NCBI RefSeq assembly: GCF_000737325.1
Contig: NZ_CP011125.1
Coordinates: 9,548,001 to 9,612,000, forward strand
Source of the DNA: Sandaracinus amylolyticus
Lineage (GTDB): Bacteria; Myxococcota_A; Polyangia; Polyangiales; Sandaracinaceae
Direction: 5' to 3'
DNA: 64,000 nucleotides
Below the pieces are notes generated by a model. It had not been told where the DNA came from and searched no databases. It saw nothing but the letters and a program-made list of their open reading frames with translations. This document shows, piece after piece, positions 45,934 to 55,506 of this stretch (positions are counted from its first letter, which is position 1; each line of letters opens with the position of its first letter). A program made the position numbers and the translations under genes.

Positions 45934-47067
45934 TCAGGGCGCATACAGCGCGCGGAGCGCGTCGTACGCGGGGCGCGTGTGTCGATCGATGTCGACGACG
46001 CCCCACCACTCCTCGTTGAACGTGCGATCGGGGTGCGGCCCGCCGCCCGGCGCGATGCCGCCGACGTCGTGCACGTCGGGGCTGCCCGACTGGTCCTTCC
46101 ACCACTCGTCGGACCACTCGAAGATCGTCCCGCCGAGCACGATGCCGTCTGCGCGCCGCGCGGTCGACGACGCGAGGATCTCCTCGGTGAGCAGGCGCGT
46201 CGCCTCGGCCTGCGCGGCGAGGTTCTCGCGGCCTCCGTCGCGCGCGTCCCACGCGTCGGCGCCGTACTCCGAGACGAACATCGGCGCATCGCTCAGCGCG
46301 GCCCAGCGCGCGAAGAGATCGCCGAACGTCGCGCCGCGGTAGACGTTGAGGCCCCACATGTCGATCGAGGGCATCGCCGCGATCGTGTCGGCGCTCGGCA
46401 CCTCGCCGTAGATCGTGATCACCGGGCGCGACGGATCGAGCGCGTGGATCATCGCGGCGATGCGCTCGAGGCGATCGCGCGTCTGGTCGAAGGGCAGCCC
46501 GGTGTAGAGGCCGTTGTAGTTCCACTCGTTGCCGACGATCCATCCGAGCACGGCGCGATGGCCGATCGTCGCGCGCACGCGATCGAGCGCTGCGCTCTCG
46601 GCGTCGCCGCCCCACGCGTAGACCGTCTGGAACACGCCGATCCCGTGCGCGTCGAGCACGTCGAGCACGCGCGTGTCGGTGATCGCGTCGTAGGTCCGGA
46701 TCGCGTTGATGCCCGCGGCGCGCATGAGCGGCGCGTCGGTGTCGACGAAGCCCGCGAAGTCGGCGGGCTGGGTGCGGCCGCGCGCGACCGGGTTCCAGCA
46801 CACGCCCCGGATCTCGTAGGGCGCGCCGTCGACCAGCAGACGCCGACCGTCGACACGCACCGTGCGCGGGCCCGGCGTGCCGGAGTCCGGCGCAGGCGTG
46901 CTCGCGTCGTCGTCGTCGATCGGGCGCGCGGCGTCCTCGTCGTCCTCGAGCGCGGCGTCGGCGCGCGAGGAGGCGTCGGTGCGGGGGATCGCAGCGTCGC
47001 GATCGTCGGCGAGCGTTCCGTCGCAGCCAGCGAGCACGAGCACGAGCATCGAGAGGATGCGCCGCAT
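45934..47067 (-). CDS. TIM-barrel glycoside hydrolase-like lipoprotein (GH2/GH5-type)
   Basis: The lipobox Cys is near residue 15 (LVLAGC), then an Asp/Ala linker of about 50 residues. The domain begins GRRLLVDGAPYEIRGVCWNP, the start of GH2 (beta-galactosidase/glucuronidase) TIM barrels. The acid/base Glu is predicted at about 181 in IVGNEWN and the nucleophile Glu at about 267 in MFVSEYGAD. TIFEWSDEWWK near the C terminus fits the substrate-binding Trp strand. The substrate is not clear. It directly follows the DUF1552 gene with no gap, at the end of a three-gene operon. Confidence 0.85.
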   Translation of the reverse strand: MRRILSMLVLVLAGCDGTLADDRDAAIPRTDASSRADAALEDDEDAARPIDDDDASTPAPDSGTPGPRTVRVDGRRLLVDGAPYEIRGVCWNPVARGRTQPADFAGFVDTDAPLMRAAGINAIRTYDAITDTRVLDVLDAHGIGVFQTVYAWGGDAESAALDRVRATIGHRAVLGWIVGNEWNYNGLYTGLPFDQTRDRLERIAAMIHALDPSRPVITIYGEVPSADTIAAMPSIDMWGLNVYRGATFGDLFARWAALSDAPMFVSEYGADAWDARDGGRENLAAQAEATRLLTEEILASSTARRADGIVLGGTIFEWSDEWWKDQSGSPDVHDVGGIAPGGGPHPDRTFNEEWWGVVDIDRHTRPAYDALRALYAP

Positions 47068-48510
47068 TTACCGCAGAATCTCCGAGACGATCTGGTTCGG
47101 GATGCCGCCGACGTGCGAGCCGAAGCCCGTCACCGGCAGCTCGAAGGTCTGCGTGAGCAGCGTGTAGTAGAGGTCGCGCAGCGGACGATCCCCGGGCGTC
47201 GCGGGGAACACGATGTGCTGATCGCCACGCAGCGTCCCGCCGCCGCCGCCGATCAGGACGATCGGCAGCTCGTTCGCGTCGTGGTTGCTGCCGTGCATCC
47301 CGCTCCCGAAGACGACGACGGTGTTGTCGAGCACCGTGCCCTCGCCCTCGGGGATCGCGTCGAGCCGCTGGCAGAGATCGGCGACCTTCTGGGTGAGCCA
47401 CCAGTTGATCGTCGCGTAACCGTCGTTGCTGTCGCCCGCGTGCTGCAGCCCGTGGTAGCCGCCCACCGAGCCGCTGCCCGCGACCGAGCCGGTGTCGCTG
47501 AACGTGCGGTTCGTGAGATGGCTGTAGACGAAGTCGCTGCGCGCGTCGTCGAGCATGTACGAGATCACGCGCGTCGAGTCGCACTGCAGCGCCATCGTGA
47601 CGAGCGCGTTCATCACGTCGGCGTGCTCGCCGCGATCGTAGTCGGCGGGCACGGCGTCGACGCCGTACGCCTCGCCGTGGCGCTCGACGGGCTCGCACAT
47701 CGCGCGCGTCACGCCGTCGCCGATCGACGCGACGCGCCGCTCGAGCTCGCGCACCGACGTGAGGTACTGATCGAGCGCCGCGCGATCCGCGACCGAAAGA
47801 CGGCGCTGCACGCGCTCGGTCGCGTCGCCGAGGAAGTCGAGCGCGCTGCGGCGCAGCATGCGACGGCGCGTCGCCGCGGCCTGCGCCTCGGGATCGAGCC
47901 CGCCGTCGCCCGCGCCCGCGGCCACCAGCCGATCGAACACCGACTGCGGGTTCACGTCCTTGTAGAGCGGCTCGGTCTCCGAGGCCCACGACACGCTGCG
48001 CGAGAGCGATCCGTGGCGCCCGTCGGTGAACGAGTTGAGCGTCGAGAGCCCGACCTGCAGCGACGGGATCGGCGTGAGCCGACCGAGCTCGCTCTGCGCA
48101 ATCACCTGATCGACCGAGATGCCGTTCGCGACCTCGACGTCGAGCGCGTCGCGCAGCGCGTCGGAGTCCGCGCACGTGAGGAACGCGCCGGTGCAGCGCG
48201 CGTGGCTCGGCTCGACGAAGGGATCACCCTGCATCGCCGTGTAATTCTCGAGGTTCGTGAGGACCGTCGTCTTCGCCTTGAGCGGCGCGAGCGGCTCGAG
48301 GATCGGCGAGAGCTGCCACGAGTCGCCGCTGCCCGCGCCGCGCGACGGCCAGTACTGCGCGGCCGCGCCGTTCGGGAAGTACACCGCGACGAAGCGCTTG
48401 GGCGCGGTGGTGGTCTGCGCGCGCGCGCGACCGGCGAGGCTCTCCATCCACGGCAGCGCGAGGCTCACACCGGCGCCGGCGAGGAACACGCGACGAGAGA
48501 AGCGCGACAT
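47068..48510 (-). CDS. DUF1552 secreted protein (Tat signal)
   Basis: The 480-aa protein starts SRRVFLAGAGVSLALPW, a Tat-type twin-Arg leader. The DUF1552 body follows: RFVAVYFPNGAA near the start, LTNLENYTAMQGDPFVEPSHARC (split as two segments), LDQYLTSVRELERRV and VVVFGSGMHGSNHDANELPIVL near the end. It has no assigned biochemical activity; the fold is related to alkaline-phosphatase-like DUF1501/DUF1552 proteins. It is always found next to DUF1592-type cytochromes in Planctomycetes and Myxococcota, as here (14-bp gap upstream). A GGAGG site precedes the ATG. Confidence 0.9.
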   Translation of the reverse strand: MSRFSRRVFLAGAGVSLALPWMESLAGRARAQTTTAPKRFVAVYFPNGAAAQYWPSRGAGSGDSWQLSPILEPLAPLKAKTTVLTNLENYTAMQGDPFVEPSHARCTGAFLTCADSDALRDALDVEVANGISVDQVIAQSELGRLTPIPSLQVGLSTLNSFTDGRHGSLSRSVSWASETEPLYKDVNPQSVFDRLVAAGAGDGGLDPEAQAAATRRRMLRRSALDFLGDATERVQRRLSVADRAALDQYLTSVRELERRVASIGDGVTRAMCEPVERHGEAYGVDAVPADYDRGEHADVMNALVTMALQCDSTRVISYMLDDARSDFVYSHLTNRTFSDTGSVAGSGSVGGYHGLQHAGDSNDGYATINWWLTQKVADLCQRLDAIPEGEGTVLDNTVVVFGSGMHGSNHDANELPIVLIGGGGGTLRGDQHIVFPATPGDRPLRDLYYTLLTQTFELPVTGFGSHVGGIPNQIVSEILR

Positions 48511-48524
48511 CGGAGCGACCTCCT

Positions 48525-50159
48525 TCAGCGATCGGCGCGCGGCTCGGCGCGGCGGGTGCGGAACGCGTTGGACGAGACGATCGCGTGCACGAGCGCGCGC
48601 ATCGAGGTGCCGTGGGCGCGCCAGCGCGTCTCGATCGCGCGGAGCTGCGCGGGATCGGTCGACTGCTCGCGACGACCGAGCGCGTACACGTACATCGTGC
48701 GCGCGACGCAGGGCTCGAACCGCGGATCGTCGGCGATCACCTGCGCGAGCTGGCCGAGGCCGTCGAACGACACGCCGTTCGGCAGCGTGCCGCGCGCGTC
48801 GATCGCATCGCCGTTGGGGTAGCTCGCGCGCAGCGCGCCGATCGCGTCGAAGCGCTCCAGGCCGAGCCCGATCGGGTCCATGATCGCGTGGCACCCCGCG
48901 CACTGCGGGTTGCTGCGGTGGAGCTCGAGGCGCTCGCGCACGTTGTCGAGCGCGGCCGCTTCGTTCGCGGCCTCGTCGCCGTCGAGGTCGGGGATCTCGA
49001 GCAGCGGCGGAGGCGGCGGCGGCTCGTCGCAGAGGAGCGTGCCCAGCACGTACTTCGCGCGCAGCGTCGGCGAGGTGCGGTGCGCGTACGAGGTGACCGT
49101 GAGCACCGCCGCGAGGCCGAGCACGCCGCGGCGCTCGGGATCCGCGATCGTGATGCGCTCGAGCGCGTCACCGAAGTCGCCGTCGATCCCGTAGTGATCG
49201 GCGAGCCGCGCGTCGACGAAGTGCGCGTCGCTCGTGAGCATCTGCGTGATCGGCGCGGCGTCGTCGCGGAGCAGCTCGAGGAAGAACGCGTCCGCTTCGG
49301 CGCTCATCGCGGCGCGCAGCGGCTCGTCGAACTGCGGGTAGATCTCCGCGAGCACACGATGGCTGCGCAGCCGCCCGGTGCGCAGCCACTGGCCGGCGAA
49401 GCCCTGCACGAACGCGACCGCGCGCTCGTCGTCGAGCATGCGATCGACCTCGGCCGCGAGGATCTCGGGCTCGAGCAGCGCGCCGCTCTCCGCGAGCTCG
49501 AAGAGCCGCGCGTCGGGCATCGTCGACCACAGGAAGTACGAGAGGCGCGACGCGAGCTCCCATCCATCGAGCGGCTGCGGCGAAGTCTCTCCCGGCGCGT
49601 GATCGAGCTCGAGGCGATACAGGAACTGCGGCGCGGCGAGCATCGTCGCGACGACGTGCTGCAGCGCCTCGTCCTGGCCGAGGCCGAGCGCGACCGCGTC
49701 GGTGTGGAGGTTCACGAGCGCCTGCACGTCGTCGTCCTCGAGCGGACGGCGCCACGCGCGCAGACCGAAGTCGCGCAGCACGCGCTGGAGGCACGCCGCG
49801 CCCTCCGCGGCGACGTCGCACGTGACGATGCGCGCGCGCAGCTCGGGGCGCGCGAACACGTCGGCCGCGAGCGTCTCGCCCGCGTCGAGGTAGCTCTCGA
49901 CCTGCGTCGGCGTCGCGCCGAGCGCCTCCGCGATGTGGTCGAAGCCGTGCTCTTCTTCCGCGACGAACGTCGCGCCGGGGCGGAGCGTCGTGCCCAGCAG
50001 ATCGTGGACCGTCTGGTCGTACTCGCGGTTGCTGAGGCGCTGCGGTGGGCGGTGCCCCGGGTCGACCGGTGCGGGACCGCGCGGCCCGGCCGCGCTCGAG
50101 TCGAGCGAGCCGACGCACGACGCGAGCAGGAGAGAGATCGAGACGAGACAGCGACGCAT
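48525..50159 (-). CDS. DUF1592/DUF1588/DUF1595/DUF1585 c-type cytochrome-like protein
   Basis: AAGGAGG precedes the ATG. The signal peptide has a lipobox Cys near 15 (SLLLASC). Domains in order are DUF1587-like RLSNREYDQTVHDLLG, DUF1595 (about 90-160, DFGLRAWRRPL), DUF1592 (160-290, WELASRLSYFLWSTMPD), DUF1588 (300-400, RRGVLGLAAVLTVTSYAHRTSP) and DUF1585 at the C terminus. CAGCH with IMDPIGLGLERFDAIG is the single haem c site. At 544 aa it is the short form of the planctomycetal cytochrome family. It heads the operon with DUF1552 and the glycosidase-like lipoprotein. Confidence 0.9.
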   Translation of the reverse strand: MRRCLVSISLLLASCVGSLDSSAAGPRGPAPVDPGHRPPQRLSNREYDQTVHDLLGTTLRPGATFVAEEEHGFDHIAEALGATPTQVESYLDAGETLAADVFARPELRARIVTCDVAAEGAACLQRVLRDFGLRAWRRPLEDDDVQALVNLHTDAVALGLGQDEALQHVVATMLAAPQFLYRLELDHAPGETSPQPLDGWELASRLSYFLWSTMPDARLFELAESGALLEPEILAAEVDRMLDDERAVAFVQGFAGQWLRTGRLRSHRVLAEIYPQFDEPLRAAMSAEADAFFLELLRDDAAPITQMLTSDAHFVDARLADHYGIDGDFGDALERITIADPERRGVLGLAAVLTVTSYAHRTSPTLRAKYVLGTLLCDEPPPPPPLLEIPDLDGDEAANEAAALDNVRERLELHRSNPQCAGCHAIMDPIGLGLERFDAIGALRASYPNGDAIDARGTLPNGVSFDGLGQLAQVIADDPRFEPCVARTMYVYALGRREQSTDPAQLRAIETRWRAHGTSMRALVHAIVSSNAFRTRRAEPRADR

Positions 50160-50189
50160 CCGCGCCTCCTTGGAGAGCGAGCGCACGCG

Positions 50190-50251
50190 AGATCGAGCTG
50201 GGACCGGCGAGCGCGTGGAGGCGCGTGTGCTCGCCGATCCCAGCTCGATCT
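50190..50251. repeat. Inverted repeat with 23-bp arms
   Basis: The arms 50190-50212 and 50229-50251 pair at 22 of 23 positions (the mismatch can be a G-T wobble) around a 16-base loop. It lies between two minus-strand operons: downstream of the gene ending at 50307 and upstream of the DUF1592-type gene starting at 50159. No T tract follows. It may end or stabilise the upstream mRNA. Confidence 0.75.
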
Positions 50252-50306
50252 GCGCTTCGACGGGTGAGTGGAGCGGCGCGCGCCGGCTGGTTGCGAAAAA
50301 GATCGA

Positions 50307-51290
50307 TCAGGGACTGAACGCGACGCCGAGCGCGCCGTTCGCGACGATCTCGCCGACGCGATGCACGGGGCCGAGCCCCGTGATGTCGAAGCGCGGTCGC
50401 GTGGTGCTCCACTCGAGGCCGCCGATCAGCCGCAGCTCCACGCTGCCGATCATCACCGCGACGCCGAGCGCGCCGCGCAGCGCGACCACCGGCGCCCACA
50501 CCTCGCGATCGTCGATCGTGCCGTTCGCGCTTCCGTTCACCGCGCGCGTGACCGCGCCGAGGCACACCTCGCCGCGCAGCACGTCGACCGGCGCGCCGGC
50601 GCAGCCCTCGAGGCCGATCCCGAGCGCGTGGAAGGTCGCGTCGGTCGTGTCGTTCACCGCCTCGGGCGCGCCCGGGCTCGCGGCGGCGCGCACTCGGACG
50701 CGCCACCACGGCTCGCCGATCTCCACGGTGAGCGCGCCCTCGAACGATGCCTGCGGGAGCACGCCCCACGACGCGCCGAGCTCGAGGCCCGCGGTGAAGC
50801 GCACGCCGCCCTCGGGCGCCGGTGCGACGGGCGGCGGAGGCGGCGGCGGAGGTGGCGGCGGAGGTGGCGGCGGCGGAGGTGGTGGCGGTGGAGGAGGCTC
50901 GGGCTCGGGCTCGTCGGTGCGCAGGGCGACACCTTCTCCGTATGCCAGCGCGAGCACGAGCGTCGCCGCGCGCAGGAGATCACTGCACGTCTCGGCGACC
51001 AACGTGCGGCGGCCCTCTTCGCCGTCGCGCTCGGTGGTCATCGCGAGGCGGAACCCGTCGCGACCCTCGGTGATCGTGCCCCGCGCCCGCAGCGTCGTCG
51101 GCGCGCGGCCGGGCTCGATCACGACGATGCGCGCGAGCTCCGCGCGCACCGCGCCGGCGTCGGGGCACGCCTCGGGCGCGCTCCACTCGAGCTCGAGCGG
51201 AAGCTCCTGCGCGCTCGCAGGAAACGCGACGAGCACGGTTGCGCACGCAACCGTGAGAGTTGCACACGCAACCGTGCGCAGCCCGCTCAC
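50307..51290 (-). CDS. Exported protein with Pro-rich linker and beta-barrel-like C terminus
   Basis: The GTG start overlaps the upstream stop (GTGA, 51287-51290). A Sec signal peptide cleaves after ASAQE. Residues about 28-120 form a small domain (LELEWSAPEACPDAG..., with a matched second Cys in AETCSD). A run of about 23 consecutive prolines follows (near 130-153). The C-terminal roughly 170 residues have alternating strands (FTAGLELGASWGVLPQ, ALRGALGVAVMIGSVELRLIGGL) like a small outer-membrane barrel. It is the third gene of an ECF sigma/TPR operon. It could span the periplasm, but this is inference. Confidence 0.75.
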   Translation of the reverse strand: MSGLRTVACATLTVACATVLVAFPASAQELPLELEWSAPEACPDAGAVRAELARIVVIEPGRAPTTLRARGTITEGRDGFRLAMTTERDGEEGRRTLVAETCSDLLRAATLVLALAYGEGVALRTDEPEPEPPPPPPPPPPPPPPPPPPPPPPPVAPAPEGGVRFTAGLELGASWGVLPQASFEGALTVEIGEPWWRVRVRAAASPGAPEAVNDTTDATFHALGIGLEGCAGAPVDVLRGEVCLGAVTRAVNGSANGTIDDREVWAPVVALRGALGVAVMIGSVELRLIGGLEWSTTRPRFDITGLGPVHRVGEIVANGALGVAFSP

Positions 51291-52009
51291 CGCGCCGCGC
51301 AGCTCTCCTCGACCGAGCGCCGCAGCGGCGACTGGCGTGCGGTGCGCAAGAAGCGCGTCGCGAGACGTCGCGCCTCGGCCTCGCGCCCGACGTCGCACAG
51401 CGCGAGGATGCGCAGCGCGGTGCGCTCGGGCGCCATCTGGCTGCGCGCGAAGCGGTCCTCGTGCTCGCTCACCAGCGCGAGCGTGCGCGCGCCGTCGCCG
51501 GAGCGCCACGCACGCTGCGCGGAGTGCAGCAGCTCGAGCTCCTCCGCGAGATCCTCCGAGGACGACGACGCGCTGGCACGACGGCGCGCGCGCCGCGGCG
51601 CCTCGGGCTCGTCGACCACCGGCGCTTCTGCGGCCGCGATCTCCTGCGGCGGTGCCTCGACGGGCACCTCTTCGATCACGGCGTGCTCCGGCGGTGTGAC
51701 CACGACCGGCGCGGGCTCTTGCGGCGGCGGTGTGCTGCTGCGCGTCACGACGACCGCGCCCGCGCCGAGGACGCCGACCACCAACATCGCGCCGAGCCCC
51801 TTCACGACCCACGCGCCCGCGCCCGCCGCGGCCGCGCCGGCACCGCTCGCCGCCGCGCTCCCCGCAGCCCCGCCGACCGCCGCGCCCGCGCCGATCGCGA
51901 CGGCCGCCGCGAGCTTGCGCTCGATGCGCGCGCGGTCCTCCGCGCTCGGCGTCCTCGCGTCGCGCGCGACCCGCAGCACGTCCCGCGCGTTCGGCCCGAG
52001 CTCATCCAT
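51287..52009 (-). CDS. Membrane protein with C-terminal TPR-like region, sigma-factor partner
   Basis: The N terminus NARDVLRVARDARTPSAEDRARIERKL is a short helical segment seen beside ECF sigma factors in Polyangia. Residues 35-90 are very Ala/Gly-rich and hydrophobic, giving one TM helix. A Pro/Glu/Val-rich periplasmic stretch follows. The last 75 residues (ELELLHSAQRAWRSGDGART, ALRILALCDVGREAEARRLA) look like two TPR helices. It lacks the zinc anti-sigma motif HxxxCxxC, so an anti-sigma role is inferred only from position (8-bp overlap with the sigma gene). A strong GGGGGAAGG site precedes the ATG. Confidence 0.75.
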   Translation of the reverse strand: MDELGPNARDVLRVARDARTPSAEDRARIERKLAAAVAIGAGAAVGGAAGSAAASGAGAAAAGAGAWVVKGLGAMLVVGVLGAGAVVVTRSSTPPPQEPAPVVVTPPEHAVIEEVPVEAPPQEIAAAEAPVVDEPEAPRRARRRASASSSSEDLAEELELLHSAQRAWRSGDGARTLALVSEHEDRFARSQMAPERTALRILALCDVGREAEARRLATRFLRTARQSPLRRSVEESCAAR

Positions 52010-52559
52010 GGCCTTCCCCCCACCGCTGCTTCGCGCGGAAGCGCGTCACGGCCGCTGCGAAGATCGCGCGCGCCGCACGCACGCGCGTGCGCACCGTGTT
52101 GTCGTTCGTCTCGAGCATCTCCGCGGCTTCGCGGCTCGTCATCTGCTCGACCTCCATCAGGAGGAACGCCTCGCGCTGATCCTCGGTCATCTTCTCGAGC
52201 GCCTCGTCGAGCACCGCGAGCGCCTGCTTGCGCGCCAGCGCGTCCGACGGCGACTCGCCCTCGCCCGCCGGCTCCTCCTCGAGCGGCGCGCCGATCGGAC
52301 GGTGACCGTGGTGCCTGACGTAGTCGCGCACCACCCATCGCACGATGCCGTAGAGCCACGTGCGCACGCTCGAGCGCCCCTCGAAGTCGGGCAGCTTGCG
52401 GTGCACGACGAGGAAGACCTCCTGCACCACGTCGTCGAGCGCAGCGGCGGGCACACGGCTCGCCGCGAGCCGCCACACCATGTCGAAGTGCGCGGCGTAG
52501 ACCTCCTGGAACGTCGGGCGCACGAAGGCCTCGGGCATCACCGTCGCCGTCGCGCTCAT
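52002..52559 (-). CDS. ECF RNA polymerase sigma factor
   Basis: This 185-aa protein has sigma region 2 (FQEVYAAHFDMVWRLAASRV, ALDDVVQEVFLVVHRKLPDFEG, VRTWLYGIVRWVVRDYVRHH) and region 4 (LEKMTEDQREAFLLMEVEQMTSREAAEMLETNDNTVRTRVRAARAIF, quoted in pieces by family: EDQREAF, MTSREAAEML and NTVRTRV). There is no region 3 or extension, so it is a minimal ECF sigma. It heads a three-gene operon whose second member is a membrane protein. It likely responds to an envelope signal. The ATG has GAGG upstream. Confidence 0.92.
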   Translation of the reverse strand: MSATATVMPEAFVRPTFQEVYAAHFDMVWRLAASRVPAAALDDVVQEVFLVVHRKLPDFEGRSSVRTWLYGIVRWVVRDYVRHHGHRPIGAPLEEEPAGEGESPSDALARKQALAVLDEALEKMTEDQREAFLLMEVEQMTSREAAEMLETNDNTVRTRVRAARAIFAAAVTRFRAKQRWGEGHG

Positions 52560-52635
52560 CTCGTGCCTCGGCGCATCCTGCCCGGTGAGTGGGGCGGGCG
52601 GCGCGCCCTGGTTGCGAAAAGCGTCGCTCACGCGA

Positions 52636-54549
52636 TCACGGCCCGATCCCGATCGCGCCGACGAGCCCGTCGAAGGGCCCGCTGGTGCTCCCGGTGAACC
52701 CGATCGCGAGCCGATCGTAGCGGCCCGACGCGATGCTCGTGTCGACACCGCGCGTGTCGTCGACGCCGCCCATCACGAGCCGCGCGCTCTCCGCGTCCCA
52801 CGACGCCTCGACGTCGAACGCGCGACCGTCGACGTCCACCATGCTCGGGATGAGCCAGCGGATCACGTCGTCCTGCGAGGCCGCGAAGATCACGCTGCCG
52901 GGGATCGTCACGTAGAGGTTGATCTGATCGCCCGGGCTCGCGCCCTCGCTGATGTTGAGCATCGCCTGGTCGTGCAGGCGCGCGACCGGCGCGGTCAGGG
53001 CGCGCGCGCGGATGCGGCCCGACGTCGCGCTCGGCACGTTGTCGGTCGCCGCGAACACGAGCTCGTCGTCGCCGTGCACGTCGAAGACGAGGCTGCTCGG
53101 TGAGATCCGATTGCCCTCGCGCTGCAGGCCCGCGACCTCGAAGAGCGTCGAGTCGTCGCCGACGAATTCGGTGCTCCCGCCGACCACCGCGACGATCTCC
53201 GCGCGATGCTGCCCATCCGCGAGATCACGTGCGACGAGCGCGACGCGCGTCACGCCCGCGCCCCAGTCGTCGAGCTGCACCTCGATCGCGGGGTCGTTCG
53301 AGACGACGAGCTGCGCGTCGAGATCCACACGCGCCACACCCGCGCCCTCGATGCTCGCCTCGACCATGCCCGCGCCGGCCGCACGCGCGAAGAACGAGAA
53401 CGTCGTGGTGCCGCCGTGCTCGAGCACCACCGCGACACCGTGGCGGCCGCTCACCGGCGCGCCGCGCACCGCGCCCATCGGGACGACCTCGCCGATCGAT
53501 CGCGCCTCGTCGACGTGCACCACGCTCGCGCCGATCGTCTCGAACGCGATCGGATCGAACGGAACGTACGTACCGCGCCGCGCGCGCGCCTCGGCGAGAT
53601 AGCCGCAGAAGATCTCGCCTGCGGCATCGGGGCGGCACGCGATGCGCGGCCAGTCCTCGCCGACGAGGTGCAAGCGTCGCGCGCCCGCGTCCTCGACGAG
53701 ATCGACGAAGGCCTCGCCCTCGCGCGCCATCACGATCGGGAGCGGGCCTCCACCGGCCAGCGAAGGGAGCACGCCGGTGAGCGCAGCGAAGCGCTCGCGC
53801 AGCGCGCCCGCCTCGAGCACCGCGTCGCCGAGCGGCACGATCGCGAGCCACGCGACGCGCGCGCTCCCCGCGCCTCCCACCACGATCGCGTGGGGCTCCT
53901 CGCGCCCGCCGGGCATCGCGATCGCGTCGGTCGCGACGCCGTTCACGTGCACCACCGACGCGCGATCGTCGTGGAGCTCGAACACGACGTGGTACCAGGC
54001 GCCCTCGACGAGCGGTCGCGTCGCGATCACGAGCTCGCCGTGCTGCAGCGTGAGCACGCGCTCCGCGTCGCTGCGCACGACGATCGATCGCGACGCGCTC
54101 TCCGCGCGCAGCACCTCGCTCGATGCGGCCGCGCGCAACACCAGCTCGATCACGAGATCGCTCGCGCCGACCCGCGCCAGCGTGCCTTCGCTGGTGAACG
54201 CGGGATCGATCGCCACAGCGCGCGTCGCGTCGGTGAACGGCCCACGACGCGCCACGATCGCGCCTTCGCTCACCAACGACCCGCCGGTGCGCGCGGGCCA
54301 TCGCGTGCTCGTCGCGTCCTCGCCGCGCAAGAGCAGCGCGGGCGCGCGGCTGGTGGTGCCCGCGGTCCACCCATCGCCCCACACGCCGGTCCCCGAGCGC
54401 CCGAGCGGCAGCTCGAAGCGCCCGCGACAATCGGTGCCCGCCGGGCAGTACCGAGCGGGCGGAAGGCCTTGCTCGCCGATCACGTAGGGCCCTTCCGAGC
54501 ACGCGATCGACGTCACGAGCGCCAGCGCGAGCGAGGCTCTTCGCAGCAA
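52636..54549 (-). CDS. Lipoprotein with LamG/concanavalin-like domain
   Basis: The TTG start gives a signal peptide with lipobox Cys near 17 (VTSIAC). Residues about 70-260 resemble a LamG/concanavalin-like lectin domain: WYHVVFELHDDRASVVHVNGV is the typical strand pair. The remaining roughly 370 residues are beta-rich and end with a second lectin-like or jelly-roll segment (FDVEASWDAESARLVMGGVDD). No catalytic motif is recognised. It may bind extracellular polysaccharide. A TTG start is rare in this window and should be checked. Confidence 0.75.
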   Translation of the reverse strand: MLRRASLALALVTSIACSEGPYVIGEQGLPPARYCPAGTDCRGRFELPLGRSGTGVWGDGWTAGTTSRAPALLLRGEDATSTRWPARTGGSLVSEGAIVARRGPFTDATRAVAIDPAFTSEGTLARVGASDLVIELVLRAAASSEVLRAESASRSIVVRSDAERVLTLQHGELVIATRPLVEGAWYHVVFELHDDRASVVHVNGVATDAIAMPGGREEPHAIVVGGAGSARVAWLAIVPLGDAVLEAGALRERFAALTGVLPSLAGGGPLPIVMAREGEAFVDLVEDAGARRLHLVGEDWPRIACRPDAAGEIFCGYLAEARARRGTYVPFDPIAFETIGASVVHVDEARSIGEVVPMGAVRGAPVSGRHGVAVVLEHGGTTTFSFFARAAGAGMVEASIEGAGVARVDLDAQLVVSNDPAIEVQLDDWGAGVTRVALVARDLADGQHRAEIVAVVGGSTEFVGDDSTLFEVAGLQREGNRISPSSLVFDVHGDDELVFAATDNVPSATSGRIRARALTAPVARLHDQAMLNISEGASPGDQINLYVTIPGSVIFAASQDDVIRWLIPSMVDVDGRAFDVEASWDAESARLVMGGVDDTRGVDTSIASGRYDRLAIGFTGSTSGPFDGLVGAIGIGP

Positions 54550-54594: not shown

Positions 54595-55506
54595 TCAGAA
54601 CGAGAGACCGAGCTCGCGCTTGTATCGCTCGAACGTCCGGCGTCCCGCCTCGAGCCGCATCAGCGCGCCCTCTGCGATCCACCGCCCGAGGCGCGCGTCC
54701 TTCGCGACCAGCGGCTTGATCACGTCGCGATCCCAGCGCTCCGAGTGCTTGCGATCGATCACCGCGTGCAGCGCGTAGTAGCGACGCGCCGCGCCGCTGA
54801 GACCGAGCCGCGCGAGCCCGCGCTCGACGAGCACGCAGCGACCCGGCGCCGTCAGCTCCACCGCGCCGAGCGCACCGACCGAGTGGTACGCGTAGCGCCG
54901 GTTGTACGCGAGGCCCATCAGCAGGTTCCCGAGCGCGATCGACTCCCACACGATCGGGTGCTTCACCGGGTCGAGCTCGAGCTCCTGCGCGAGACGGCCG
55001 AGCATCGGGCCGTGCATCCCGTCCTCGTGCCCGACGCCCATCTCGTCCCAGTAGTTGCGCGCGAGCTCGAGCTTCGGCGTGACGTCCATCTTGCGCTGCG
55101 TGAGCGCGACGAGATCGTCGAAGCCCGCTTCGCCCGCGAGCTCCTGCTCGAGGAACCAGCGCATCGACGGAAGGTCGGCGTCGTTCGCGAGCCAGTCGAA
55201 GAGCGGATCGTGCTGGCCCGGGCCCGACTCCTCGAGCGACTCGAACCACGCGACGAACTCGTCGGCGTTCGTCGGCGCCTGTCGCGCGCGCTCGGCGATC
55301 ACCGCGCGCTCGCGCTGCAGGAAGCGCTCTTCGATTTCGGCGAGGCGATGATCGCGCTCGAAGAAGGGCGGCGTGTCGGGCGTCGCGGGGCGCAGGCGCC
55401 GCGCGTTCAGCTCCGAGAGCAGCTTGTGGAGCGCATCGGGCGAGAGCTCGTCGCGGCTCGTACGAGCGTCGGCGGAGGTCTCGCGTCGGTGCTCGGTGAC
55501 GTGCAT
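54595..55506 (-). CDS. Haem-oxygenase-like (HDO-type) iron-containing redox protein
   Basis: The 303-aa protein has the signature of the iron-containing redox / Haem_oxygenas_2 family: FLEQELAGEAGFDDLVALT, then ARNYWDEMGVGHEDGMHGPML, WESIALGNLLMGLAYN and RYYALHAVIDRKHSERWDRDVI. These Glu/Asp/His helices fit a diiron centre in a haem-oxygenase fold. Related enzymes include oxygenases that modify amino-acid or fatty-acid substrates. The start ATG 55506 is preferred; a GTG at 55515 adds three residues. It is divergent from a DDAH-like gene (122 bp between starts). Confidence 0.83.
   Translation of the reverse strand: MHVTEHRRETSADARTSRDELSPDALHKLLSELNARRLRPATPDTPPFFERDHRLAEIEERFLQRERAVIAERARQAPTNADEFVAWFESLEESGPGQHDPLFDWLANDADLPSMRWFLEQELAGEAGFDDLVALTQRKMDVTPKLELARNYWDEMGVGHEDGMHGPMLGRLAQELELDPVKHPIVWESIALGNLLMGLAYNRRYAYHSVGALGAVELTAPGRCVLVERGLARLGLSGAARRYYALHAVIDRKHSERWDRDVIKPLVAKDARLGRWIAEGALMRLEAGRRTFERYKRELGLSF

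Follow-up and report, generated by a model that had tools for sequence, protein, structure and literature searches.

How a signal crosses two membranes to reach an ECF sigma factor is understood in detail chiefly in the case of iron-transport receptors and of RseA in Escherichia coli, and the locus described here raises the question of whether a sigma factor of the myxobacterium Sandaracinus amylolyticus may be reached by a route built from other parts. The original prediction for the window (the whole 64,000-nucleotide stretch analysed, positions 9,548,001 to 9,612,000 of contig NZ_CP011125.1) was a three-gene envelope-sensing module; conservation and predicted structures lend good support to such a module, and the prediction had missed a lipoprotein, promoter-like sites and a downstream operon. 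The analysis covered which genes are present and in what order, how often they recur, the folds they are predicted to have, cysteine pairing, promoter footprint and lipoprotein tag, and we consider it rather probable that the trio in the window represents an ECF signalling module of trans-envelope type that is widespread in myxobacteria.

Gene layout and recurrence of the trio

The three genes of the window are as follows.

52002..52559, minus strand: ECF sigma factor gene, 185 aa, limited to regions 2 and 4 (Pfam, TIGR02937, orthologues)
51287..52009, minus strand: gene of a single-pass membrane protein, 240 aa, candidate anti-sigma factor
50307..51290, minus strand: gene of an exported protein, 327 aa, GTG start, candidate outer-membrane sensor or transducer

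The genes are as tightly coupled as had been reported, down to their coordinates: the sigma factor and membrane-protein genes overlap by 8 bp (52002-52009), and the start of the exported-protein gene overlaps the stop of the membrane-protein gene as GTGA. The description of the first product as a minimal ECF sigma factor is likewise borne out by profile searches, Sigma70_r2 and Sigma70_r4_2 both scoring above the Pfam cut-off and TIGR02937 matching at 85.5 bits (cut-off 42.9), which places it in the sigma-70 family with regions 2 and 4 only. It is the sole member of the trio to be recognised, the membrane and exported proteins having no match to a curated family in Pfam or NCBIfam. The membrane protein matches the NCBIfam model GltJ far below its cut-off, no known anti-sigma domain was recognised in it with either collection, and the HxxxCxxC motif of zinc anti-sigma (ZAS) proteins occurs in 0 of the 71 membrane-protein relatives scanned, in keeping with the earlier statement that this motif is missing. 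We note that the exported-protein gene contains, in the codons for its signal peptide, a near-perfect tandem repeat, GTTGC[AG]CACGCAACCGT in two copies (51239-51283), each of which includes GCAACC.

Seeding a public genome collection with the sigma factor alignment yielded 476 relatives, the best 80 of which were analysed. The trio that was to be sought in other genomes recurs there, being complete in 67 of these 80 loci; its order in the window, sigma-membrane-exported, is the rarer one (4/80 versus 63/80 for exported-sigma-membrane), such that the gene set is shared and the arrangement is that of a minority. The other loci among the best 80 of 476 comprise seven without a recognised exported-protein gene, five without a recognised membrane-protein gene, which end less than 400 nt from the sigma factor gene, and one with the sigma factor gene alone. 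Within the same best 80, the sigma factor and membrane-protein genes are directly adjacent in nearly all loci. Searches seeded with the other two families and extended by flanks of 1.5 kb gave a similar picture, the trio being complete in 22/30 membrane-protein-seeded and 23/30 exported-protein-seeded loci, with a sigma factor gene present in 25/30 and 27/30, respectively. Relatives of the membrane protein that have no sigma factor gene within 1.5 kb thus number 5/30, and the notion that its homologues might always be found apart from such a gene, which would have counted against the original prediction, does not hold. The recurrence of the trio is more than chance.

All three families meet at six loci of the organism's own genome, the window included, and the five further loci have the order exported protein-sigma-membrane protein. 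Across 56 relatives searched, the membrane-protein family was found in 42 and the exported-protein family in 39, often in several copies, and the trio locus lies in full synteny in the sister species. Some variants of the arrangement were seen along the way. Two paralogous trios of the own genome (L014 6660-7753 and L011 6553-7322) have a membrane-protein gene split over two frames, the frameshift falling in the Ala/Gly-rich spacer, transmembrane (TM) or linker region, which reflects either sequencing error or decay. Orphan membrane TPR proteins with no sigma factor or barrel genes nearby are encoded in the own genome (L015 7287-7835) and in the sister species (L105 4450-5001), and a further own-genome locus (L013 7019-9761) carries a divergent pair of sigma factor and TPR membrane protein followed by a lipoprotein, with no recognised barrel gene.

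Predicted architecture of the two envelope proteins

From N- to C-terminus, the membrane protein comprises two helices, an Ala/Gly spacer, a TM segment, a Pro-rich linker and a BamD-like TPR tail. AlphaFold2 places the N-terminal helices at residues 6-19 and 23-43 (pLDDT about 80), models the middle region with low confidence, and resolves a five-helix tail at residues 147-235 (pLDDT about 96). When this protein was compared with the four-helix (class I) anti-sigma domain, it was found to have two predicted N-terminal helices, with no Pfam or NCBIfam match. Conservation of the two-helix stretch (1.15 bits) exceeds that of the spacer (0.60) and of the linker (0.71). The tail resembles BamD both in fold (Z 12.2 over 88 residues, 2.0 A) and in sequence (profile match, E 2.6e-6); since Z values near 12 are common among helical repeats, the sequence match carries more weight. 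Foldseek returned no match to the tail below E 0.001. The window protein itself has no Pfam match, the TPR models matching its relatives: YfiO and TPR_14 match 24 and 27 of the 71 members (E up to 0.1), and none of these 71 matches FecR, the matches being to TPR models instead.

The TPR-like nature of the tail, as put forward originally, therefore has both fold and profile matches behind it; the periplasmic location claimed along with it draws on a pair of conserved cysteines. C205 and C237 of the tail are both present in 49, both missing in 9 and singly present in 2 of the 60 members scored (out of 71, the 11 without a clear TM segment having been left out). Cysteine pairs that are present or absent together point to disulphides, and their co-occurrence in the TPR tail supports, and suggests to us, a periplasmic position for this domain. 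Charge-based topology leaves the orientation ambiguous, with 28 members predicted out, 13 in and 17 tied among the 58 that have a single segment, and so does the net charge across the TM segment (inward in 35, outward in 15 and tied in 10 of 60 members). In four orthologues, the N-terminal ARTPSA and C-terminal SVEESC stretches of the membrane protein are invariant, as expected if this protein binds a partner at each of its ends.

The exported protein is predicted to consist of a signal peptide, a Cys-paired alpha/beta domain, a 23-proline linker and an 8-stranded OmpA-like barrel. Its AlphaFold2 model, built from 61 aligned sequences (mean pLDDT 88.5), shows the alpha/beta domain at residues 32-123 (pLDDT mostly 90-97) and an antiparallel barrel of 8 long strands at residues 164-325 (pLDDT about 97), with the intervening proline linker disordered. 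In fold searches, the matches of the barrel include OmpA (Z 18.2, 155 residues, 2.5 A) and the barrel domain of OprF (Z 17.6), which agrees, at the level of prediction, with the barrel-like domain proposed before; compared with the sequences of solved structures, the barrel family gave weak matches, the best being MinC at E 0.0012. The long proline run noticed ahead of the barrel is indeed 23 residues, an extreme among the 61 members, in which the next longest run is 10 and the linker (median 50 residues) is 24% proline. Cysteines C42 and C102 of the alpha/beta domain are both present in 60/61 members, and C230 and C243 of the barrel are both present in 48, both missing in 13 and never found singly (61 members). 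No match to TonB-dependent receptors was found in the 61 members and the model contains no plug; a C-terminal peptidoglycan-binding OmpA domain is absent, the protein ending with the barrel and having no Pfam match there. Both ends of an 8-stranded outer-membrane barrel face the periplasm, and the alpha/beta domain attached to one of them is therefore presumably periplasmic.

Co-variation between the parts of the module, computed over 54 trios and compared with the maximum obtained by permutation, is modest. It is clearest between the alpha/beta domain and the TPR tail (0.41, permutation maximum 0.20); region 4 of the sigma factor and the N-terminus of the membrane protein lie slightly above the permutation maximum (0.29 versus 0.23), and region 2 and the same N-terminus do not reach significance (0.23 versus 0.27).

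The tagged lipoprotein, the promoter-like elements and the downstream operon

The surroundings of the trio contain further features.

52636..54549, minus strand: lipoprotein gene, tag CSEGPYVIGEQ after the lipobox, weak LamG-like region; predicted fourth component
52584..52620, minus strand: putative ECF-like promoter P1, TTTTCGCAACCAG-N15-CCACTCACC, upstream of the sigma factor gene
50263..50299, minus strand: putative ECF-like promoter P2, boxes and spacing as in P1, upstream of the DUF1592 operon
50185..50255, minus strand: long hairpin that follows P2 and precedes the DUF1592 gene
48525..50159, minus strand: DUF1592/1587/1588/1585/1595 lipoprotein, haem motif CXXCH (CAGCH); gene predicted to be a target
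47068..48510, minus strand: DUF1552 (HXXSHH) exported protein; predicted target operon
45934..47067, minus strand: TIM-barrel lipoprotein, glycoside hydrolase 2-like; predicted target operon

Among the 67 complete loci, 62 had room for a scan of the adjacent gene, and the gene directly 3' of the trio (same strand, less than 400 nt away) encodes a lipoprotein in 41 of the 44 loci where such a gene exists, compared with 79/402 other genes of these loci. Many of these lipoproteins share a tag right behind the lipidated cysteine; its pattern, C-x(n)-[hydrophobic]-x-[VILF]-G, was found in 28/41 adjacent lipoproteins versus 13/79 others, several of the latter near the module (p 3e-8, an optimistic value, as these loci had already been inspected when the pattern was drawn up). 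The counts rest on a scan of called genes in place of a strict lipobox scan; the strict version finds the tag in 19/67 loci (20/41 adjacent versus 9/78 other candidates), and a partly overlapping second set of lipoproteins gave 7/12 versus 6/23. The domains behind the tag vary between loci, some being LamG-like and others, as judged by eye, vWA-like or Cys-rich. The lipoprotein of the window, whose LamG region scores below the Pfam cut-off, lies upstream of the trio, unlike the downstream ones counted above, and is missing from the tag list because the gene caller trimmed its start; 2/15 other lipoproteins in the window fit the tag pattern by chance. Its relatives occur in 5/317 genomes of the class; four of these have the gene immediately upstream of a trio in the order sigma-membrane-exported, the fifth (G200) having no module on its 10.6-kb piece. 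Two paralogous loci of the own genome also have a tagged lipoprotein alongside. Directly upstream of the tagged lipoprotein gene, at 54595-55506, is a gene for a haem-oxygenase-like iron redox enzyme (PF14518) that may be on the same transcript.

P1 stands 24 nt ahead of the ATG of the sigma factor gene, and P2 separates the exported-protein gene from that of DUF1592. Exact matches to CGCAACC-N18-CACTCACC number two in the whole genome (10,327,335 bases, one contig), both at this locus; none is added at one mismatch, and 23 more appear at two mismatches, compared with 15 in a reversed control. The sister species has an identical P1 and retains the boxes of P2, the 15-nt spacer of which is changed at most positions. 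A search of 317 genomes of the class for GCAACCAG-N15-CCACTCA gave six matches: five belong to this locus, in three species, and the sixth lies in an unrelated place (the reversed control gives four). One of the more distant orthologous loci (G113, sigma factor 67% identical) has the promoter site ahead of its sigma factor gene. In the genome of another, from a different family (G061, 54% identical), GGCAACGG-N16-CCACT[CG]TC occurs exactly twice, with none more at one mismatch, before the sigma factor gene and before the gene of a 711-aa di-haem oxidoreductase. All seven of seven sites fit GCAAC-N18-CCACT, and the stretch of the sigma recognition helix reads NTVRTR in the four orthologues versus NT[VT]YSR in three own-genome paralogues. 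Most simply, this footprint can be read as that of a sigma factor that regulates its own gene and controls one more operon, P1 and P2 being putative promoters of this sigma factor. The idea of one promoter for the whole trio family was rejected, as no shared two-box element is enriched upstream of 73 trio operons. Nor is a double promoter apparent in the other trio loci, repeated AAC dyads lying upstream in 3/91 loci versus 4/91 in a control stretch.

The DUF1592 match of the predicted target gene was obtained on a reading frame with the same stop and a longer start. A 105-nt stretch containing the hairpin ahead of it folds at -68.6 kcal/mol (z -6.8); in the sister species 37/41 pairs are unchanged, one C-G is A-T, two pairs change on one side yet stay paired, and one outer pair breaks. 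Weaker matches to the hairpin number ten genome-wide, its own reverse strand included, and hint at a palindrome family. Haem proteins were also considered as general targets of the module and discarded: CXXCH motifs occur in 4/118 nearest neighbours of the trios versus 6/315 further ones and are thus not enriched beside them, limiting the haem link to the subgroup of the window. At the G113 locus (L212 1784-2758, 7124-9278), the trio is followed directly by a thaumatin-family gene and has Tos1-like and GH64 beta-1,3-glucanase genes on its other side, perhaps a fungal-cell-wall theme.

A proposed trans-envelope relay and its alternatives

The best reading of the module is that it works like Fec-type surface signalling, built from other parts. 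That the genes form a unit is argued from their conservation, and the geometry of the relay from the predicted folds; each binding step, the direction of regulation and the signal itself we infer. The two N-terminal helices of the membrane protein would hold the sigma factor at the inner membrane, in the manner of CnrY or FecR, while its BamD-like TPR tail would extend into the periplasm on the proline-rich linker and contact the exported protein at its Cys-stapled alpha/beta domain, itself suspended by a presumably rigid proline linker from the 8-stranded barrel in the outer membrane. The lipoprotein, with its conserved tag and exchangeable domain, would provide specificity and may dock on the barrel or on its periplasmic domain. 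A change in the state of this outer part would free the sigma factor, which would then use P1 to transcribe its own operon and, in this lineage, P2 to transcribe the adjacent exported-protein operon.

Known systems resemble the proposed relay in part. In Fec/Fox-type signalling, a signalling domain contacts the anti-sigma factor, according to a published account (PMC11637429). Shared with that design are an outer-membrane barrel with a periplasmic N-terminal domain, a single-pass membrane protein and an ECF sigma factor. In contrast, Fec requires a 22-stranded barrel with a plug, whereas the window protein is an 8-stranded OmpA-like barrel without a TonB-dependent plug, a BamD-like TPR tail takes the place of a FecR domain, and a tagged lipoprotein is added; no Pfam match to the Fec families was found in the window proteins or their relatives (61 exported, 71 membrane members). 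SigX of Pseudomonas aeruginosa (ECF102) has been proposed to act with the outer-membrane porin OprF, as described in a paper (PMC8999054) that likewise pairs an ECF sigma factor with an outer-membrane barrel, that of OprF being among our fold matches. In the SigX-CfrX-OprF system, the anti-sigma factor is a small soluble protein, unlike the single-pass membrane protein with a TPR tail found here, and an ion channel is involved. CnrY, the anti-sigma factor of CnrH, belongs to class II, in which two helices wrap around the sigma factor, and is a short two-helix segment according to another study (PMC7406223); the membrane protein of the window has two helices predicted ahead of its TM segment, a likeness of predicted helices rather than of sequence, and differs from CnrY by its long linker and TPR tail. 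OmpA shares the predicted 8-stranded barrel, but the window protein has an alpha/beta domain before it and no C-terminal OmpA domain. BamD is a lipoprotein of five TPRs, whereas the tail, which belongs to the YfiO-type TPR proteins by way of its relatives, has five helices only and is membrane-anchored.

The BamD likeness also feeds two other explanations. The membrane and barrel proteins could be effectors, forming a structural bridge or assisting outer-membrane assembly, that are switched on by a sigma factor controlled in some other way (transcription, phosphorylation). The BamD fold serves barrel assembly and the tail is BamD-like in fold and sequence; the weak co-variation of the sigma factor with the N-terminus of the membrane protein and the lack of a recognised anti-sigma domain in the latter fit this explanation too. 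We nonetheless regard it as unlikely, given the direct adjacency of the two genes in nearly all loci and the conservation of the predicted two-helix stretch before the TM segment relative to spacer and linker. Alternatively, the tail may bind the C-terminal strand of unfolded outer-membrane proteins, the co-encoded 8-stranded barrel acting as a sentinel of envelope stress. DegS-RseA of E. coli senses unassembled barrels by another route. Both the BamD homology and the presence of a barrel gene are consistent with such a sensor, but it would leave the Cys-paired alpha/beta domain and the tagged lipoprotein unexplained, and a genome with six copies in parallel looks more like a set of specific inputs than a response to a single general stress, so that we consider this sensor quite improbable.

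A different doubt concerns the two-box element, which might be the operator of another local regulator instead of a promoter of the sigma factor, as its confinement to one orthologous subgroup would allow. ECF promoters carry an AAC-containing upstream box, however, and the element resembles them in having such a box, a second box and a fixed spacing; it is also found 24 nt ahead of the sigma factor ATG, and the boxes change together with the sigma lineage. An operator therefore appears very unlikely.

Returning to the Fec-like relay, we tentatively put forward, as plausible rather than probable, a plug-in family in which lipoproteins with exchangeable outer domains and a short docking tag would feed a common set of barrel, anti-sigma factor with TPR tail and ECF sigma factor. 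A genome could carry several such sets, each with its private promoter, and the regulon here would comprise two sites (the sigma operon and the adjacent exported-protein operon). No description of the trio or of the tag was found in the open-access literature searched; the trio may be named in subscription papers or in the main classification of ECF sigma factors, which may also give this sigma factor a group number. The two-site promoter footprint makes the module readily testable, with one sigma factor, two promoters and one suspected anti-sigma factor. If true, this second trans-envelope design would offer myxobacteria a general way of linking surface lipoproteins to gene expression.
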